Both the position numbers and the translations under genes were made by a program. Shown here one piece after another: positions 24,611-34,554 of a stretch of DNA of 34,554 nt. The first letter of the stretch is position 1, and each line of letters begins with the position of its first letter. The notes under the pieces are model-generated. The model was given only the letters and a program-made list of their open reading frames with translations. It was not told the origin of the DNA and did no database searches. Source of the DNA: Thermocrinis sp. (lineage in GTDB: Bacteria > Aquificota > Aquificia > Aquificales > Aquificaceae); NCBI GenBank assembly GCA_028276475.1, contig JAPYWH010000012.1, forward strand, positions 1 to 34,554, given 5' to 3'.

Positions 24611-24652
24611 GTGTTTGTTAATATTATAGTAAAGTATAACAAAAAGGATGGG

Positions 24653-27472
24653 ATGAATACTTATAAGCTTGCAGGAAAGATAGCGCAAGATAAGTTAATT
24701 ATCGTGCTTTCCCTTTTACCCTCAGCGATCCTTTTTGCTAAAGAAAAAAGCCCAAAAGATAAGCTTGTTGAACAAAGTTTTGTAAACCTAAACCCAACTT
24801 ACCAAAGAGGTGCTCCATACAAAACAGAGGAAAAATACTACCAGCTTTTAGTTCAGAGCTTTTTGGGTGCCAACGACCTACAAAACGCCCTAAGGGTGCT
24901 TGAGGATGCGGTTAAAAGATTTCCACAAAATCCCAAATGGTGGGAGCTATACGGACAGGTGCTAATTTGGAACAATATGGGAGCCAAAGCGGGAGAAGTT
25001 TTTTACGAAGGTTACAAAAACACAAAAAACAAAGAACTTGCCAAAAAAGCCTTTGAAATCTCCCTCGCCTTTAACAGGATAGATATTGCCAAGGAACTTA
25101 TGGAAGTAGTTTCCGTTCCTCCCAATGTAAAGGTCTATATCTACGACCAATTGGGAGATGTGGAAGGACTTTTAAAGTTTTCATACACTCTAAAAACCAA
25201 AGACATGCTTTTAATGAGGGCACAAATACTCAATGCGTTGGGAAGAAAAAGAGAGGCAGAAGAAACTATTGATGAATATATAAAACTATATGGAAAGGAT
25301 GAAAAAAGCGTGCTACTTCTGGCAAACATCTATTATTCGGGCAGGAAGTTTGAACAAGCCTTAAAGGTTTTAAAGGACTTTTTGCCAAGTGTCAAAGAGG
25401 ATAATGTGGAATTTTACAGAACCCTCAGCGACCTTGCTTGGATGCTCCAAGATTACGACGCCACAGCTTTAGCTTCCGAACAGTTAATTAGCCTTTCCAA
25501 GGGTGAGGTGGCGGATTACATCAGACTATCCGAAATATACTTTAGAAAGGGTTCAAAAAGGGCGGTTTTCCTTGCGCTGGAAGGCTACAAAAAGTTTGAG
25601 AATATAATACTTCTGAAAACCGCTTTTTACTATTCTTACGCTTTGGGATTATACGATCAAACCGTTGCCATCTTTAAAGACCACAGAGACAAGCTACAAG
25701 ATGACGTAAATACCGTGTTTTCCTATTTGCTTGCTCTACAACAGCTTGGTAAAAAGGAAGAAGCCCTTGAAGAGTTAGAAAAAATTTTGGCAAAGGCTAA
25801 AACTCCCGAGCTTGTCTCCTTTTACATCTACTCCCTGGTGGAAGCCCAACGGGTGGATGAGCTAAAAAGGGTTCTAAAGGAATACGAAACATACACAAAG
25901 AACCCTTTGGTAGCCCAAGCCTATGCGGTAGCGTATATATCCCTACAGCAGGGTCAAACCGCCCTCAGCTATTACAAACTATCTGGTTCCCAGGATCCAT
26001 TACTCTATGCAGACATTATTAACGTGATGGGTATGGAGGAGGAAGCCAAAGCTATAAAGCTAAAAGCATACAGAGGGCTAAAAAGTGGTGGAGTGCCTTG
26101 GGATGATCTGGAGAAATTGAGGTTATACCTCTCTTTGGCTATGGAGTTTGAAAATCCAGAGGTCTTTGAAAGAAAACTCCAAAGGGCAAAGGAAGTTCTT
26201 TCTGACGCAGTTTGGAAAGATATATACTTTGCCTATCTCTTTTCAAAAGAGCAGAGGGAGAGGGCAATTCTACAGCAAAGGTTATACAAGTATCCACTAA
26301 AGCCTTGGATGTGGCTAAATTTAGCCCTTTGGCAGGACGATAGGTATCTGGCACTACAACTCTTAGAAAGTGATCCAGAAGCCCTTCCCATAAGGGACAG
26401 GGTGGAAGCTTTAAGGCGAGTAGGTCAGCCAAGGAGAGCCTTAGAGCTTGCCTTCAAGGGTCTGGAGGAAAACCCGTATGACTACCAACTTTACAAACAG
26501 TTCAGAGACTTGGCGGTGCAGGAATCAAACAGGGTAAGCTTGGAAGCATCCCATCAAAAGAGAGAAGCTTACGGACAGTTTGTTGAAAGACTGGAGGTAG
26601 AAACTAAATTGGGAGACACCAACTACTCCGTTGGGTTTAGGTCTTCCACCTTTCAACCCACATATAAAAAGGATCAAGCCATAAGACAAAAGGTAGGGGG
26701 TTATCAAGCAGAGATCTACCTACGCAGGCGGTTTGATAGGGGATACATTGGCTTTGGAATAGGACAGTTGGAAAGGCTCAGGTCGGTGATGAATTTCCGT
26801 CTCTTTGGAGAATCCTACCTATTTAGCGGATTATCGGCGGGCTTGGAGGTTGGATACAGACAGCCCAGCACAGAAAGCCTTTACCTTGAGCTTGGCGGTT
26901 TAAAAAACTACGCTAAGCTTAGCTTAACGTTTAATCCTTACAGTAGGCTTGGCTTTTACTCCAGCTTAGAGGTCAATGAGTTTTACTCGCAGGATATAAA
27001 AAGGTTGGGAACGGGCTTTTTTGCATACAATCAAGCCCAATACAAGCTAAAAGCTGGCTACCCTGACTACGCATTAAGGGCATTCCTTAGCTACGGCAAT
27101 TACAGGGAAAAGGCGGGTAGCGAGGGAGTTATAGAGCAACTTTCTCCTTTTACCACTTTTAGGGTGCTACCGGAGAACTACTACGCGGTCGGTCTGGGAT
27201 TTTCCTTTGGCTTTGAACACAAAGACTCATACACACGCTTTTGGAGACCCTTTTTTGATGCAAGCTTAGCTTACAATTCCCTTGGCAGTTTGGGTATATC
27301 CACAGAAGTAGGTTTGGGTGGTGCGGTTTTTGGAAGAGACAATTTCTCTGTGGGACTATCCTTCAGTAAGAATACGGGTGGGACAAAGGAAACTGTAATA
27401 GGTCCCTATCTTATCTACAGATACTACTTTATTCACACTCCAAAGCTAAGAAAAGTAGAGGAGAGTAGATAA
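24653..27472 (+). CDS. pelB: PelB-like outer-membrane TPR/porin for Pel polysaccharide export
   Basis: The protein has 939 residues. A signal peptide (LIIVLSLLPSAILFA) is followed by about 570 residues of helical TPR-like repeats (for example ALRVLEDAVKRFPQNPKWWELYGQ and EALEELEKILAKAKTPEL). The last 300 residues alternate polar and aromatic residues as in an outer-membrane beta-barrel. PelB has this exact design: the periplasmic TPRs bind PelA and guide polymer to the barrel. It is shorter than the Pseudomonas protein (about 1,190). Sequence similarity is not obvious, so the name rests on architecture and the pelC-G neighbours. ATG 24653 is chosen over GTG 24611 because it gives a proper signal peptide. 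Confidence 0.85.
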   Translation: MNTYKLAGKIAQDKLIIVLSLLPSAILFAKEKSPKDKLVEQSFVNLNPTYQRGAPYKTEEKYYQLLVQSFLGANDLQNALRVLEDAVKRFPQNPKWWELYGQVLIWNNMGAKAGEVFYEGYKNTKNKELAKKAFEISLAFNRIDIAKELMEVVSVPPNVKVYIYDQLGDVEGLLKFSYTLKTKDMLLMRAQILNALGRKREAEETIDEYIKLYGKDEKSVLLLANIYYSGRKFEQALKVLKDFLPSVKEDNVEFYRTLSDLAWMLQDYDATALASEQLISLSKGEVADYIRLSEIYFRKGSKRAVFLALEGYKKFENIILLKTAFYYSYALGLYDQTVAIFKDHRDKLQDDVNTVFSYLLALQQLGKKEEALEELEKILAKAKTPELVSFYIYSLVEAQRVDELKRVLKEYETYTKNPLVAQAYAVAYISLQQGQTALSYYKLSGSQDPLLYADIINVMGMEEEAKAIKLKAYRGLKSGGVPWDDLEKLRLYLSLAMEFENPEVFERKLQRAKEVLSDAVWKDIYFAYLFSKEQRERAILQQRLYKYPLKPWMWLNLALWQDDRYLALQLLESDPEALPIRDRVEALRRVGQPRRALELAFKGLEENPYDYQLYKQFRDLAVQESNRVSLEASHQKREAYGQFVERLEVETKLGDTNYSVGFRSSTFQPTYKKDQAIRQKVGGYQAEIYLRRRFDRGYIGFGIGQLERLRSVMNFRLFGESYLFSGLSAGLEVGYRQPSTESLYLELGGLKNYAKLSLTFNPYSRLGFYSSLEVNEFYSQDIKRLGTGFFAYNQAQYKLKAGYPDYALRAFLSYGNYREKAGSEGVIEQLSPFTTFRVLPENYYAVGLGFSFGFEHKDSYTRFWRPFFDASLAYNSLGSLGISTEVGLGGAVFGRDNFSVGLSFSKNTGGTKETVIGPYLIYRYYFIHTPKLRKVEESR

Positions 27473-27528: not shown

Positions 27529-28014
27529 ATGAAAAGGGTATATTTTGCAGTCTTGGTTCTCTTCCTGATTGTAGGCTGTGCACGGGTTGTAAATCAAACG
27601 CCTACTCTCCCTATAAAGGGAGAGCCCTATGCGGTGCTACCCTTTGAAAACTACACAGAGACACCCTATGCAGGTTACAGGGTTGCATCCATTTTAGAGG
27701 GAGTGCTTGCAAGCAAGGGCTACAACCTGATCCCAAGGGTTTGGTCCATAAAGGAAAGGGAACTTGCAGGAGAGGAGATTGAAAAGTTAAAGGAAAGTGC
27801 AGTAAAGAACGGGGCAAAATACGTAGTGTATGGTTCCGTCAATGAGTTCAGATACAAAACAGGCTTGGACGGCGAGCCGGCGGTAAGTATAACCATCTTT
27901 GTCTATGATGCAAAAGAAAACAAAGTTGTTAAAAATGTTGCGGTATCGGGTAGTGGTTGGGTGCATGAATCATTGGGAACACTCGCCCAAAAGCTTTTAA
28001 ACCGAGCTTTCTGA
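27529..28014 (+). CDS. pelC: PelC-like outer-membrane lipoprotein
   Basis: This 161-residue lipoprotein has signal and lipobox LFLIVGC. The mature part reads YAVLPFENYTETPYAGYRVASILEGVLASKGY, then KNGAKYVVYGSVNEFRYK and VSITIFVYDAKENKVVKN, a CsgG/TolB-N-like alpha/beta fold as in PelC. PelC forms a dodecameric ring under PelB that funnels the cationic polymer to the barrel. It has a strong AAAAGGAGGTG before the ATG, so it may be made in excess, as a ring subunit should be. It overlaps pelD by one base (TGATG). Confidence 0.85.
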   Translation: MKRVYFAVLVLFLIVGCARVVNQTPTLPIKGEPYAVLPFENYTETPYAGYRVASILEGVLASKGYNLIPRVWSIKERELAGEEIEKLKESAVKNGAKYVVYGSVNEFRYKTGLDGEPAVSITIFVYDAKENKVVKNVAVSGSGWVHESLGTLAQKLLNRAF

Positions 28015-29186
28015 TGCAGGCTTTTAGGCTTGGTGAAAGAATAACGATTGAAAAGGTTATATTCGTAGAAATTTTTCTATTAATCGCTTCTTTATTAGCT
28101 TTGGGTTGGTATTTCAACCGAGAAGACCCACTCTTTATAAAAAGTAGATATGACTTAATAAACCTTCTAGTGGTTGCCCTTTCCCTTTACTATGGATACT
28201 CTGGAGCTATTGTGCTAATATCTTTGCTCTCCGCGGGATACTTTTTCTTTTACCAACCGTTTCCTTTAAACGATCTCTTGCAGAACCTCCTTTTTGCCCT
28301 TTTGTCTTCTGAGTTTAGATACATATGGGATAAAAAAATAAAGCTTGCACTTGCAGATAAAACCTACGCAGAACAGATGGCGGAGCTTTATCGAAGACAG
28401 CTATTTAGCTTAAAGTTTGAATACGACCTGCTGGAAAGACAGTTTGTGCTTTCTCCCTACAGCGTAAGGAATATTTTGGAAAGGTTTAAAGTTCCCTCTT
28501 CAAAGGCTTTCATGGAGCTGATATCAGACTTCTTTGGCGTTATATCCGCAGAGCTTTACAAGCACGAAGATGGAAAGCTCATTTCTTTGGAAAAGTTGGG
28601 TGGCGGTGTGAAGATAGATGAAGAAGACCCTTTGATACAGGAAGCCTTGGAGCTGAACACATCCTTTTATATTCCACCTAAAGACATACTGAGAAAGGCT
28701 ATTAGCGAGGAGCTTAGCTTTATAGCCCTTGTGGTGGCAGAATCTTACGCGGGCAAGTTTTTACTCGCAATAAAGGATATGGATTTCTTAAACATAAACG
28801 AGGAAGTGCTATCCTACATAATGGTTCTTTTGGAATATTACGGAGACAGCATAGCCTTTGAAGCTTCAGGTTTTTCGTGCACAAAGTTTTGCGATAGAGA
28901 GTTTGAACTGCAAGCTTACAGGATGCGATCGCTAAAAGAACGCCTCGGAATAGACTCCTTTGTGGTTGTTTTTGAGTGCCCTCCCGAAAGAAGGGAAGAA
29001 GTGGTTAAGCTAAGGAGTATGGTTAAAGGTTTGGACAGGGTTTGTATAAACGAAGACAAAGTGCTTGTCCTTTTACCTATAACGCCAAAGGAAGGAGTTG
29101 AAAGATTTTTGGAAAGGATAAGTAAAAACATGGACTTTGTGAAGGTAAAAGACATAAAACCCATTGAGGAGTTCTGCAATGTTTAG
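28014..29186 (+). CDS. pelD: PelD-like inner-membrane regulator (TM-GAF-degenerate GGDEF)
   Basis: This 390-residue protein has four transmembrane helices in the first 100 residues, a coiled linker (YAEQMAELYRRQLFSLKFEYDLLERQF), a GAF domain (about 150-285) and a short degenerate GGDEF domain (about 295-385). PelD in Pseudomonas binds c-di-GMP through an RxxD I-site and switches on polymerisation. Here no RxxD is present in the GGDEF part; Lys338-Gly-Leu-Asp341 occupies the expected place before the VLVLLP strand. The protein is about 65 residues shorter than the Pseudomonas one. It overlaps pelE by 8 bases. Confidence 0.85.
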   Translation: MQAFRLGERITIEKVIFVEIFLLIASLLALGWYFNREDPLFIKSRYDLINLLVVALSLYYGYSGAIVLISLLSAGYFFFYQPFPLNDLLQNLLFALLSSEFRYIWDKKIKLALADKTYAEQMAELYRRQLFSLKFEYDLLERQFVLSPYSVRNILERFKVPSSKAFMELISDFFGVISAELYKHEDGKLISLEKLGGGVKIDEEDPLIQEALELNTSFYIPPKDILRKAISEELSFIALVVAESYAGKFLLAIKDMDFLNINEEVLSYIMVLLEYYGDSIAFEASGFSCTKFCDREFELQAYRMRSLKERLGIDSFVVVFECPPERREEVVKLRSMVKGLDRVCINEDKVLVLLPITPKEGVERFLERISKNMDFVKVKDIKPIEEFCNV

Positions 29187-30147
29187 TGATTATATAAAAT
29201 TGCTACTCGTTATATTGTTAGAAACGACAGGATCGTATACACTGATGCGATATTCAGCTGTGTTTGGATTTACAAACTATCTGTTTTCTCACTTTATTGC
29301 GTCACTCTTGCTTGCCACAATGGTGGCTGGGGTTTTAAAAATCTTTTATAAATACCCTTACAGATATGCTTTAATCCTTAGCTTTTCTATCTTTTTCTTC
29401 CTCGGACCCTTTGCAGTTTTGTTTGGTGTGGTAAGTGTTTTGATCTATACAAAAATTTCAAAGGTACCAGCTCCTGTAAAAGAGGTCAATTACGAGATAG
29501 TCTTTAGTGTTAGGGTTCTTGCGGAAGAAAGAAGGCTCGGAGAAGGAAGCTTAAGATTCGAAAAAGTGAGAGACTTAGAAAGCGTGGTGTATTTCACCAA
29601 GTTCTACCATCCTCTGACGGTAAGATTTTTTAAGGAACTTCTTTTTTCTGATAACGACGAACTAAGACTGCTTGCCAACAGTTATCTAAAAAACGCCGAA
29701 AAATACCTTCAGGAGCTAATATACGAATTAGAAAAAATTCTGGAAAGTCAGGAGCTAGGGAAGGATGTTAAATTTTTTGTGTGCAGGGCACTGGCATTTC
29801 TAAATTGGGACGTTTATTACTTAGGTTTTATGGAAGAAAAAATAGCAAAAAAGTACCTGGATAATGCTAAAGAGTACGTCATAAAAGCTTTAGAAATCAA
29901 AGAGGATCCCAGTCTTTATCTACTGATGGGAAGAATAGAGCTGAGTTCAGGAGATTATCAAAGGGCGTATGAACATTTCAAGAGGGCTTTGAATTTGGGT
30001 ATGGAACCCGTCAAGGTTTTACCTTACCTGTTGGAGGCTTTATACGAGCTCCGTAATTTCAAAGAACTGAAACAGTTTTCAGAAAAATACAGAGGAACCT
30101 ATTCAGTTAATCCCAAAAGAATGGCTCTGATCTCAGCATGGGTATAA
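29179..30147 (+). CDS. pelE: PelE-like inner-membrane TPR protein
   Basis: This 322-residue protein has two to three hydrophobic helices in the first 100 residues (LLLVILLETTG, IASLLLATMVAGVLKIF, FFLGPFAVLFGVVSVLIY). A cytoplasmic helical domain follows, with a recognisable TPR unit near the end (PSLYLLMGRIELSSGDYQRAYEHFKRAL). PelE is thought to scaffold PelD, PelF and PelG. The ATG at 29179 follows GAGGAG; a TTG at 29164 is inside pelD and rejected. Base composition looks more AT-rich by eye than the housekeeping genes. It overlaps pelF by 10 bases. Confidence 0.85.
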   Translation: MFSDYIKLLLVILLETTGSYTLMRYSAVFGFTNYLFSHFIASLLLATMVAGVLKIFYKYPYRYALILSFSIFFFLGPFAVLFGVVSVLIYTKISKVPAPVKEVNYEIVFSVRVLAEERRLGEGSLRFEKVRDLESVVYFTKFYHPLTVRFFKELLFSDNDELRLLANSYLKNAEKYLQELIYELEKILESQELGKDVKFFVCRALAFLNWDVYYLGFMEEKIAKKYLDNAKEYVIKALEIKEDPSLYLLMGRIELSSGDYQRAYEHFKRALNLGMEPVKVLPYLLEALYELRNFKELKQFSEKYRGTYSVNPKRMALISAWV

Positions 30148-31643
30148 AGCTCGTAGATAAACAAACTAATATAGATGTGCTCTTTATAGCGGAGGGAACC
30201 TATCCCTTTATAAAGGGAGGAGTATCCACTTGGATCCATCAAATAATCACCGGTATGAGAGACCTAAACTTTGGAGTGCTCTTTCTTGGCTCAAGACCCG
30301 AAGATTACAAAGGTGTTGGCTACGAGCTCCCGGACAACCTGGTCTATCTTGAGGCTGTGTATATGTTTTCAGAGGAGGAAAATGTTCAAACAAAAAAAGC
30401 CAAAAGGGAAAGTGAAAGGGTAAAACTTCTAAAGATATTTCTTGACGACAAAGCCTTCGAAGAGCATTGGCAGGAGATTGTTAGCTTTTCTTACTTTAAT
30501 GAAGTTTCTTACGAGGACTTTTTGTATAGCAAAAGCTCTTGGGAGCTAATGGAAGAACTCTACGAAGAGTTGGAAATTGATGTTCCCTTTGTGGATTACT
30601 TTTGGACTATGAGAAACCTTTTTGCACCTCTGTTTGTGGTGGCAAAACTTGGGATGAGCCTGGACAAAAAAGAAATAGGCTTAATTCACAGTCCATCAAC
30701 GGGTTATGCGGGCTTTTTGGGTAGTCTGATGAGTAGAGAATATAAAATACCCTTTGTCCTTACGGAACATGGGATCTACACAAAGGAGAGAAAGATAGAC
30801 ATTCTAAACGCAAAGTGGATAGGAGTTCAATACAGGTACCTATCCAAGAAATACGACATAGACACCCTCAGAAAGCTTTGGATAAAGATGTTCGTAAATC
30901 TTGGGAAAATATCATATTACACCGCTGTGGAAGTTTTTTCACTATTTGAAGATGCAAGAAAACAGCAGATAGGCTGGGGCTGTCCGCCTGAAAAGACAAG
31001 GGTTATACCAAACGGCGTGGATGTGGATAGACTTTCAAAGCTTTTAGAAAAAAGACCAAAGGAAATTCCGAAGGTGGTTTCTCTGATAGGAAGGGTTGTA
31101 GCCATAAAAGATATAAAAACCTTTATAAGGGCTATGAGTCTGCTGTGCCAACAGCTACCCGAGGCGGAGGGTTGGGTGGTGGGTCCCGAGGACGAGGAGC
31201 CCGAATATGCCCAAGAGTGCCGAGAGCTTACCAAAATACTTGGAGTTGAGGATAGGGTAAAATTCTTAGGCTTTCAAAAGATAGTTGATATTCTGCCCAA
31301 AACGGGGGTATTTACACTGACCTCCATAAGCGAGGGTATGCCTATGACGGTTTTGGAAGCTATGGCAAGCGGTGTGCCCTGTGTCACTACTGATGTTGGT
31401 TCCTGTAAGCAACTTATCTACGGAGGGCTGAGTCAAGAAGACATAGAAATAGGTAAGGCGGGAGAGGTGGTTCCCGTGGGTGATTCAATAGGGCTTGCAA
31501 AGGCATACTACGAACTTTTGACTAACGAAGAAATTTGGAAAAACTGTCAAAGGGCTGGGCTTGAGAGGGTCCAAAGGTTTTACCGCTTTGACAAATTTAT
31601 AGAAAACTACAGAAGTGTGTATAAAAATTATTTAGGAAAATAG
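30138..31643 (+). CDS. pelF: PelF-like family 4 glycosyltransferase (Pel polymerase)
   Basis: This 501-residue cytosolic GT4 enzyme extends the Pel chain. The N-terminus IAEGTYPFIKGGVSTWIHQII is typical of PelF. A Rossmann C-domain has PEKTRVIPNGVDVDRL, VVSLIGRVVAIKDIKTFIRA and the EX7E motif Glu399/Glu407 in SEGMPMTVLEAMASG, all retained. Length matches the family. It is the most strongly conserved gene of the locus and confirms its identity. It is followed two bases later by pelG, and PelD, PelE and PelG would tether it to the membrane. Confidence 0.94.
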   Translation: MGIKLVDKQTNIDVLFIAEGTYPFIKGGVSTWIHQIITGMRDLNFGVLFLGSRPEDYKGVGYELPDNLVYLEAVYMFSEEENVQTKKAKRESERVKLLKIFLDDKAFEEHWQEIVSFSYFNEVSYEDFLYSKSSWELMEELYEELEIDVPFVDYFWTMRNLFAPLFVVAKLGMSLDKKEIGLIHSPSTGYAGFLGSLMSREYKIPFVLTEHGIYTKERKIDILNAKWIGVQYRYLSKKYDIDTLRKLWIKMFVNLGKISYYTAVEVFSLFEDARKQQIGWGCPPEKTRVIPNGVDVDRLSKLLEKRPKEIPKVVSLIGRVVAIKDIKTFIRAMSLLCQQLPEAEGWVVGPEDEEPEYAQECRELTKILGVEDRVKFLGFQKIVDILPKTGVFTLTSISEGMPMTVLEAMASGVPCVTTDVGSCKQLIYGGLSQEDIEIGKAGEVVPVGDSIGLAKAYYELLTNEEIWKNCQRAGLERVQRFYRFDKFIENYRSVYKNYLGK

Positions 31644-31645
31644 CC

Positions 31646-33019
31646 ATGGCGGGTATTTCTTTAGAGTTAAGAAGGCTTTACAGAGAGGGAAAGCTGGGAA
31701 GAGTCCTTTTGGCGGTGGGCTACTCTGCGGTTTTGGGAACAGGCAATTGGCTCTTTGCCATACTCAGCATTTTTATATCCGCCTACATAGCGGAAAAGCT
31801 TTGGGGAGCAAGCGATACTTTAATCAAATACCAGATCTACATCACCTACAGCGTTTCCTTGAGCCTGATTCTCTCGGGCTTTTTCCAGCTTTCCTTTACA
31901 AGGTATATATCCGACAGGCTCTTTGAAAAGGAGTTTGAAAGGGTGCTTCCAAACACCCACGGTGTGGCAATACTGACCGCAAGCTACAGCTTCTTGATAG
32001 CCCTTCTGCTGTCTTTTTTCTTCTTTAAGGGATATCCGTACTATTACCATGTGCTATTCAGCTTTACCGTTGCTACCCTTTCCGTTCTTTGGGTAGTGAA
32101 CGCTTTACTTACTGGATTGAAGAGCTACAAGCACATACTCGTATCTTTTGCTATCTCGTACTCAATAGCAGGGCTTGGGGTAATTTTTCTATCAAGCCTT
32201 GGATTAATCTGGCTTATGCTTAGCTTTTATTTTAGTCAGACCTTACTGATATTTTTAATACTTTTCAGAGTTGCAAGGGACTATAGGTCTTCAAAACTTT
32301 TGGAGTTTGATTTTTTGAAAAAGGATAGGCTTTACAAAAGCTTGATGCTAACCGGATTTTTCGCTAACTTAGGTCTTTGGATAGACAAGTATGTGTTTTG
32401 GTACAGTCCGCTGACAGAAACTCCAGTATTGTGGAACATGAAGGCGTCTGTCATTTACGATGTGCCCTTTACCCTGGCTCTTATTTCAATAGTGCCCGGT
32501 TTTGCGGTGGCTTTTCTGAAGATTGAGTTGGAGTTTTTTGATAACTACGACGCATACTACAAGGCGGTCAGAACTTGGGGAAGGTTGGATGACCTTTACA
32601 GGCTCGCAAACAAGATGATAGAAAGTGCCCGCTCAGCCTTTTTTGAAACTCTGAGATTTCAAGCCCTTACCGCCATACTGCTCATCTTCATTCACGAGTA
32701 CATATTTAGGTTTCTTAAACTGCCCACCGCCTACATTCCACTGTTTGAGATCTTTCTCGTTGCCAATGTATTCCTGATGGGATACATAGTTATTTATGCC
32801 CTTCTTTCTTACTTTGACCTAAGGAGGGAGCTGGTTAAAACGACTTTTACTTTTGCCTTGCTAAACTTTGTCTTTACACTCCTAACTCAATTTCTGGGAG
32901 CATACTTTTACGGTTATGGCTATATGTTTGCCTTAATGTTTTCTATGATATTGGGTATGGAATACCTAAGGAGGTTCTTGAATGATGTTCATTATAGGAC
33001 TTTTGCTCTTCGTGAGTAG
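31646..33019 (+). CDS. pelG: PelG-like polytopic membrane protein (Wzx/MATE-like)
   Basis: This 457-residue protein has about twelve transmembrane helices. The N-terminus SLELRRLYREGKLGRVLLAVGYSAVLGTGNWLF, then LSLILSGFFQLSFTRYISDRLFE and WIDKYVFWYSP are typical of PelG, which is thought to move the growing polymer across the inner membrane. The ATG directly follows the pelF stop. The last 38 bases overlap pelA in another frame. No frameshift or missing segment is seen. Confidence 0.92.
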   Translation: MAGISLELRRLYREGKLGRVLLAVGYSAVLGTGNWLFAILSIFISAYIAEKLWGASDTLIKYQIYITYSVSLSLILSGFFQLSFTRYISDRLFEKEFERVLPNTHGVAILTASYSFLIALLLSFFFFKGYPYYYHVLFSFTVATLSVLWVVNALLTGLKSYKHILVSFAISYSIAGLGVIFLSSLGLIWLMLSFYFSQTLLIFLILFRVARDYRSSKLLEFDFLKKDRLYKSLMLTGFFANLGLWIDKYVFWYSPLTETPVLWNMKASVIYDVPFTLALISIVPGFAVAFLKIELEFFDNYDAYYKAVRTWGRLDDLYRLANKMIESARSAFFETLRFQALTAILLIFIHEYIFRFLKLPTAYIPLFEIFLVANVFLMGYIVIYALLSYFDLRRELVKTTFTFALLNFVFTLLTQFLGAYFYGYGYMFALMFSMILGMEYLRRFLNDVHYRTFALRE

Positions 33020-34554
33020 TTTGCTGGCGCAGGAATTAAAATGTGTGCTACTTTACTATCACCACAAGCCTTTGCCCGATGATGTGCTTTATGCCTACGA
33101 TTGGGTCGTGCTGGATGCGGACAACCCTTATATGGAGGTTTTGAAGGAAAAGGACTTTTATCAAAAAAAGAGGGCAAAACTCATAGGTTATATGAGCGTA
33201 GGAGAGATAGAAACCTACAGGGATTACTACAAAGACCTTAAAAAGTATTCCATCGGGACAAATCCCATGTGGAAGTCTTTGGTGGCGGATGTGAGAAACA
33301 AAGAATACAGACAGTTCCTCTTGGAAGCGGTGGCAAAAAGGATTGCGGACAGAGGTTTTGATGGGTTCTTTTTGGACACCTTAGATTCATACCAGCTTTC
33401 CGCCAAAAAAGAAGAGTGGAAAGACTTTCAGGACGCCCTTGTGGATTTTGTAAAGGAGCTAAGGAAAAGGTATCCCGACAAACTGATAGTTTTAAACAGG
33501 GGCTTTGAGTTTATAGATAGGGTTAAAGACGACGTAAATGGCGTTTTGGTGGAGAGCCTTTTTAGTGGGCTTGATGCAAAAAAAGGATACAGAACAGTTT
33601 CTGAAGAGGAAAGAAAGTGGCTACTGGACCAGCTAAACAGGATAAAGTCCTATGGCATTCCTATCATAGTGGTGGATTACGCAGACCCAAGGGACAAAAA
33701 GAAGGCAAAGGAGCTCGTTAGAAAGATCGCAGAGCTTGGATTTGTTCCATACGTGGCAGATAGGGATCTTTCAAGGGTTGGATATTCTCTCTGTTCTTTA
33801 ATTCCAAGAAAGATTGCCATCCTCTATAGTTCAAAGGAAAATCCGGTAGCCCAGTATGAACCCACTCACAGGTTCACATCTATGGTGCTTGAATACCTGG
33901 GCTTCGTGCCAGAGATGTTTGACATAGAAGAGGGGTTGCCCGAAATTTACCCAGAGCTTGGCTATGCGGGCGTAATGGTTGGTTTTTTAGGAAAGATTGA
34001 CGAAAAATTAATCGATTGGTTGATAAAGGCAAAGGAAGAGGGTTTAAAGCTATTCTTTTTGAATTCATTGCCCTACGATGAAAAATTTTATAGAGCCTTT
34101 GGAATAAGGGCGGAAAGGAACAGAGAGAGGTCTATAAATCCTTTTAGGCTAATAAGACCGAAGGAAAACAGGGGCTTTGAGGCACCAATAAAAGTATCCT
34201 ATACGGATACTCTGTTAATTGCAGAAAAGGGAACACCCATGGTTGAGGTGGAAAACTCCCTCGGACAAAAACACCATCCTTTTGCCCTCTTTGATTGGGG
34301 AGGATACGCAGTTAATGAGTCCCTTTTGAACTCAGAGGAGTTGTGGAGCTTTGACCCTTTTGAGGTGTTTAAAAAGGTCTTTGGGACCACCCTTTTGATT
34401 CCTGACCTTACCACCCAAAACGGTGGGAGAATACTTACCGCCCATATAGATGGAGATGCCTTCTTTGGAAACGCAGAATTTGACCCTTCCAAAACCACGG
34501 GAGAGGTAATAAGGGACGAAATAATAAAAAGATATCCCATTCCGCATACTGTTT
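32982..34554 (+). CDS. pelA: PelA-like hydrolase/deacetylase (partial, continues beyond window)
   Basis: The first 524 residues are present and the frame is open at the window end. A signal peptide (IIGLLLFVSSLLAQ) leads into a glycoside hydrolase domain (about 20-260). Asp132 in DGFFLDTLDS and Glu191 in VLVESLFSG match the spacing of the PelA hydrolase acids. A middle region (about 265-480) follows, then the start of a polysaccharide deacetylase domain with H488-I-D-G-D492, the metal-binding signature. PelA cleaves and deacetylates Pel in the periplasm. The ATG follows AAGGAGG at 32968-32974 inside pelG. Confidence 0.9.
   Translation, partial: MMFIIGLLLFVSSLLAQELKCVLLYYHHKPLPDDVLYAYDWVVLDADNPYMEVLKEKDFYQKKRAKLIGYMSVGEIETYRDYYKDLKKYSIGTNPMWKSLVADVRNKEYRQFLLEAVAKRIADRGFDGFFLDTLDSYQLSAKKEEWKDFQDALVDFVKELRKRYPDKLIVLNRGFEFIDRVKDDVNGVLVESLFSGLDAKKGYRTVSEEERKWLLDQLNRIKSYGIPIIVVDYADPRDKKKAKELVRKIAELGFVPYVADRDLSRVGYSLCSLIPRKIAILYSSKENPVAQYEPTHRFTSMVLEYLGFVPEMFDIEEGLPEIYPELGYAGVMVGFLGKIDEKLIDWLIKAKEEGLKLFFLNSLPYDEKFYRAFGIRAERNRERSINPFRLIRPKENRGFEAPIKVSYTDTLLIAEKGTPMVEVENSLGQKHHPFALFDWGGYAVNESLLNSEELWSFDPFEVFKKVFGTTLLIPDLTTQNGGRILTAHIDGDAFFGNAEFDPSKTTGEVIRDEIIKRYPIPHTV

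Follow-up and report, generated by a model that had tools for sequence, protein, structure and literature searches.

A lysine replaces the I-site arginine in PelD of Thermocrinis

The pel Operon and Its PelD

The window analysed here, a 34,554-nucleotide stretch of a Thermocrinis genome (1.30 Mb, 68 contigs), carries a pel operon on the forward strand in the order pelB, pelC-like, pelD, pelE-like, pelF, pelG and pelA-like. pelB (24611..27472), encoding a TPR region and an outer-membrane barrel, matches PF24604 (E=3.5e-43). It is followed by a putative gene for a PelC-like lipoprotein (27529..28014), named from its position and signal sequence since it has no Pfam match, and then by pelD (28014..29186). 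The pelE-like gene (29164..30147) was assigned by position and encodes a transmembrane and TPR protein with weak TPR matches, while pelF (30138..31643) encodes a glycosyltransferase recognized by NCBIfam NF038011 (E=2e-173) and pelG (31646..33019) matches PF16933 (E=1.5e-110). The last gene, pelA-like (32982..34553; PF03537), encodes a GH114 hydrolase and is cut by the contig end; in the complete genome of a Thermocrinis relative (G053) the pelA-like GH114 protein has 898 residues. Thus, the PelB, PelF and PelG families lie in order around pelD, which sits next to pelE-like, pelF and pelG. The operon is patchy within the genus: pelG and a true pelD were not found in two near-complete Thermocrinis genomes (G051, G052), each with 5–7 GGDEF proteins. 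Thermotoga maritima, used as a control genome, likewise gave a match to the PelG family PF16933 above the cut-off.

The pelD reading frame encodes 390 amino acids comprising a transmembrane region, a GAF-like domain and a degenerate GGDEF domain. The PelD_GGDEF family PF16963 scores 26.8 bits, just below the cut-off of 27. Homology to the PDB PelD sequence extends over the GAF and GGDEF regions, both with the single sequence (phmmer, E=7e-5) and with a profile built from 23 Aquificota PelDs (E=1.5e-22). We modelled the protein with AF2 from a 7-sequence alignment (mean pLDDT 77, pTM 0.53). The model places helices at residues 12–34, 48–60, 62–79 and 85–143, the N-terminal transmembrane helices preceding mixed folds that match 4euv, and in the PDB it comes closest to the P. 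aeruginosa PelD structures 4euv, 4etx and 4dn0 (E from 1e-9 to 6e-11), two of which, 4euv and 4dn0, contain bound c-di-GMP. No GG(D/E)EF motif occurs in the sequence. A GGDEF domain of about 94 residues, from Phe297 to the end, is present, so the protein does not belong to the GGDEF-less class IV. The closest public relatives are from Thermocrinis MAGs (89–92% identity). Homology, operon and alignment together identify the protein as a genuine PelD.

A Thermocrinis MAG, Bin P10, has a PelD open frame of 534 amino acids (L047:2956-4557) that contains a second, in-frame copy of the transmembrane region of about 125 residues. The two copies are 93% identical in DNA and reflect either a genuine tandem duplication or an artefact of assembly.

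Lysine at the I-site

In both the phmmer and the profile alignments, Lys338-Gly-Leu-Asp341 (29025..29036) falls on the I-site of P. aeruginosa PelD, R367-G-L-D370 (4euv/4dmz), directly before the shared VLLP strand. The first-pass annotation had proposed, from the sequence alone, that KGLD stands here in place of RxxD and that the last 100 residues contain no RxxD. The alignment with Pseudomonas and other thermophile PelDs bears out the first proposal, and a pattern search extends the second to all 390 residues, so that the RxxD of an I-site receptor is missing from the protein altogether. We considered whether another Arg/Asp pair might occupy the I-site and rejected this, as the protein has no RxxD at all and no gaps interrupt the alignment near KGLD.

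To see how unusual the lysine is, we aligned 51 PelDs, obtained from a PelD profile search of 136 Aquificota genomes, to which we added a small Pseudomonadota sample (four plasmid-borne PelDs and one P. aeruginosa structure sequence). Site 338 is arginine in 46 of the 46 PelDs from outside Thermocrinis and lysine in all five from Thermocrinis, which as near relatives count as one evolutionary event. Asp341 is invariant (51/51). In an earlier set with 34 outsiders, site 338 was among only four fully invariant columns of 23 near-invariant ones. Such absolute conservation elsewhere suggests that lysine is not freely tolerated at this position. A maximum-likelihood tree places the arginine-to-lysine change on a single stem with support of 100/100, a long one at 1.68 changes per column.

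AAA encodes Lys338 in the window and in all four relatives whose codons were read; the codons that follow show synonymous differences between species. Among the five Thermocrinis species dN/dS for the GGDEF domain of PelD is 0.07–0.24, a sign of purifying selection on a domain that is not decaying. A sequencing error or a pseudogene was rejected as the source of Lys338 on these grounds: the same codon in five species, and purifying selection. Genus-wide drift from arginine to lysine was rejected as well. Across seven Thermocrinis genomes, 29 of 29 I-sites in canonical GGDEF domains have retained arginine, so that the lysine is a peculiarity of PelD rather than part of a compositional trend in the genus.

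Other Ligand Residues and the Shortened Domain

The second arginine of the ligand site is retained. Arg368 (29115..29117) aligns with R402 of P. aeruginosa PelD, and this position is arginine in all but one of the 51 PelDs, the exception having lysine. On the GAF side, P. aeruginosa R161 contacts the ligand but is not essential. Its equivalent is probably Arg152 (28467..28469), judged from its distance to the SHD motif, a constant 16 residues. All five Thermocrinis proteins have EYD (28419-28427) instead of SHD, a motif that precedes the GAF domain in nearly all other PelDs. Binding of c-di-GMP by P. aeruginosa PelD is unaffected by the S145A/H146A changes in this motif.

Arg342 (29037..29039), the residue after the I-site Asp, is found in 5/5 Thermocrinis and 0/46 other PelDs, where the position is nearly always hydrophobic. 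Its codon varies synonymously (AGG/AGA) among Thermocrinis. In the AF2 model it starts a strand, 342–346. Arg342 is possibly a compensating or neighbouring basic residue. The PelD of another Aquificota genome of the same family (G057, locus L055) is a mirror-image variant of the Thermocrinis protein, keeping RTLD with lysine at the R402 position and lysine at Asp+1; its sequence is very divergent (branch 2.3).

The first-pass annotation had also judged the GGDEF domain shorter than usual, correctly: 49–50 residues follow the I-site Asp in the five Thermocrinis, compared with 58–102 (median 70) in 35 other PelDs. In the window the 49 residues after Asp341 (29037..29183) form the shortened part; what is missing is C-terminal, and all other PelDs of the set have longer tails. 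In the AF2 model the helix, strand and loop carrying KGLD are kept and are followed by two strands, a helix and a strand, the last helix of the domain being a 5-residue stub. The shortness of the domain does not argue against binding, given that the PelD construct 170–403 of B. cereus ATCC 10987, with 37 residues after D366, binds c-di-GMP with a Kd of 103 nM (PMC7112168).

c-di-GMP Enzymes in the Genome

The first-pass annotation had suggested looking for diguanylate cyclases in the genome. Four canonical GG(D/E)EF cyclase domains are encoded there, each of them with RxxD. Alongside these are one degenerate GGDEF-EAL protein, EAL domains both full and partial, and a PilZ protein; a search for HD-GYP (PF13487) found none. 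With cyclases and EAL proteins encoded, a genome devoid of c-di-GMP was ruled out as an explanation. The degenerate GGDEF-EAL protein (L005, G000:C44:9411-10589) has KSGSF as its GGDEF motif and RKSN as its I-site, and the same degenerate cyclase domain occurs in a relative (L089).

Discussion

The P. aeruginosa PelD (4DMZ, 4DN0, 4EUV) and the Thermocrinis protein share the pel operon context, the transmembrane, GAF and degenerate GGDEF regions, the I-site Asp and the second Arg. They differ in that Thermocrinis has Lys for Arg367, Arg for Val371 and 49 instead of 85 residues after the Asp. In chemical terms, a lysine in place of arginine would retain the positive charge and a single hydrogen bond, without the two-pronged guanidinium contact with guanine.

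In P. aeruginosa, R367, D370 and R402 are required for c-di-GMP binding and Pel production (PMC2170427), as are the equivalents R363, D366 and R395 in B. cereus (PMC7112168), and alanine at the RxxD arginine abolishes binding in both proteins (PMC2170427, PMC7112168). A lysine mutant at this arginine was not found in the literature on those binding mutants, nor did the literature searched describe a PelD in which the RxxD arginine is missing but the GGDEF domain is retained. The B. cereus PelD resembles that of Thermocrinis in its short tail (the Thermocrinis tail is longer than that of the construct), whereas it has RxxD and belongs to a Gram-positive operon, pelDEADAFG. The only KxxD I-site found in the literature is that of Alr3599, a cyclase of Anabaena, which c-di-GMP still inhibits with a Ki of 16 uM, against 2.4–3.7 uM for RxxD, making it about five-fold less sensitive than its RxxD sisters (PMC13075795). 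Alr3599 likewise has Lys for Arg in the motif, but it is an active cyclase and its I-site is inhibitory.

On balance we favour the view that Thermocrinis PelD still senses c-di-GMP through an altered I-site and activates PelDEFG, most likely with lower affinity. c-di-GMP would be sensed through the I-site of the degenerate GGDEF domain, and the PelDEFG complex would be activated as a result. With KGLDR instead of RGLD followed by a hydrophobic residue, Lys338 would take the place of Arg367 at the guanine, perhaps helped by Arg342; affinity would be lowered rather than lost, and more c-di-GMP would be needed, that is, the threshold would be higher. The fixation of lysine in five species, the retention of Asp341 and Arg368, purifying selection, and the cyclases and EAL proteins all support retained sensing. 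On the other hand, the change from SHD to EYD, the shortest tail of the set and the long stem branch count against this view, as PelD function may have shifted. The first-pass annotation had left three readings side by side: independence from c-di-GMP, response to another nucleotide, or weak binding. Weak binding is the best supported, given the conservative change, the other ligand residues kept, the c-di-GMP enzymes and the KxxD precedent; for the other two no positive evidence emerged.

If the I-site no longer bound c-di-GMP, PelD would be a constitutive scaffold for PelE, PelF and PelG, and Pel would be controlled by expression alone. The loss of an otherwise invariant arginine, the shortened tail and the changed SHD motif would fit such a loss, and a c-di-GMP-independent PelD does exist in streptococci, where the GGDEF domain is missing altogether and cyclases are absent from the genomes (PMC7112168, PMC12345266). 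The streptococcal class IV protein is alike in departing from c-di-GMP binding by sequence, but Thermocrinis keeps both the domain that streptococci lost entirely and the cyclases. Since Asp341, Arg368 and Arg152 have also survived a long branch, and the domain is under purifying selection in a genome with c-di-GMP enzymes, we consider loss of binding unlikely. A switch of the I-site to another nucleotide, such as c-di-AMP, cGAMP or ppGpp, appears highly improbable: the change itself is all that speaks for it, the genome and neighbourhood as examined give no pointer to another ligand, and the guanine-reading Asp, the second Arg and the c-di-GMP enzymes are retained.

The opposite outcome, in which Lys338 and Arg342 together restore an I-site of normal affinity and the shifted basic residue compensates for the lost arginine, draws on the occurrence of Arg342 in Thermocrinis alone, where five of five species have it, with synonymous codon changes; the G057 protein, with lysine at the R402 position, also has a basic residue at Asp+1. 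However, Arg342 begins a modelled strand, and because side chains along a strand tend to alternate between its two faces, it may face away from the ligand. Such compensation seems quite unlikely to us. We regard as very unlikely a bolder version, namely that KGLDR and the truncated GGDEF domain form a rebuilt site in which Lys338 and Arg342 are a coupled pair changing what PelD reads, in threshold or specificity, in hot-spring biofilms.

In Thermocrinis, a genus of hot-spring bacteria, the lysine at the PelD I-site thus probably weakens the c-di-GMP switch for Pel, a biofilm sugar, rather than removing it. The I-site arginine is otherwise invariant among PelDs from many Aquificota genera and a few Proteobacteria. 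A natural lysine, fixed in a single genus whose c-di-GMP enzymes are retained, provides a ready test of the need for RxxD in a degenerate-GGDEF receptor, and also of whether I-site affinity tunes biofilm thresholds.
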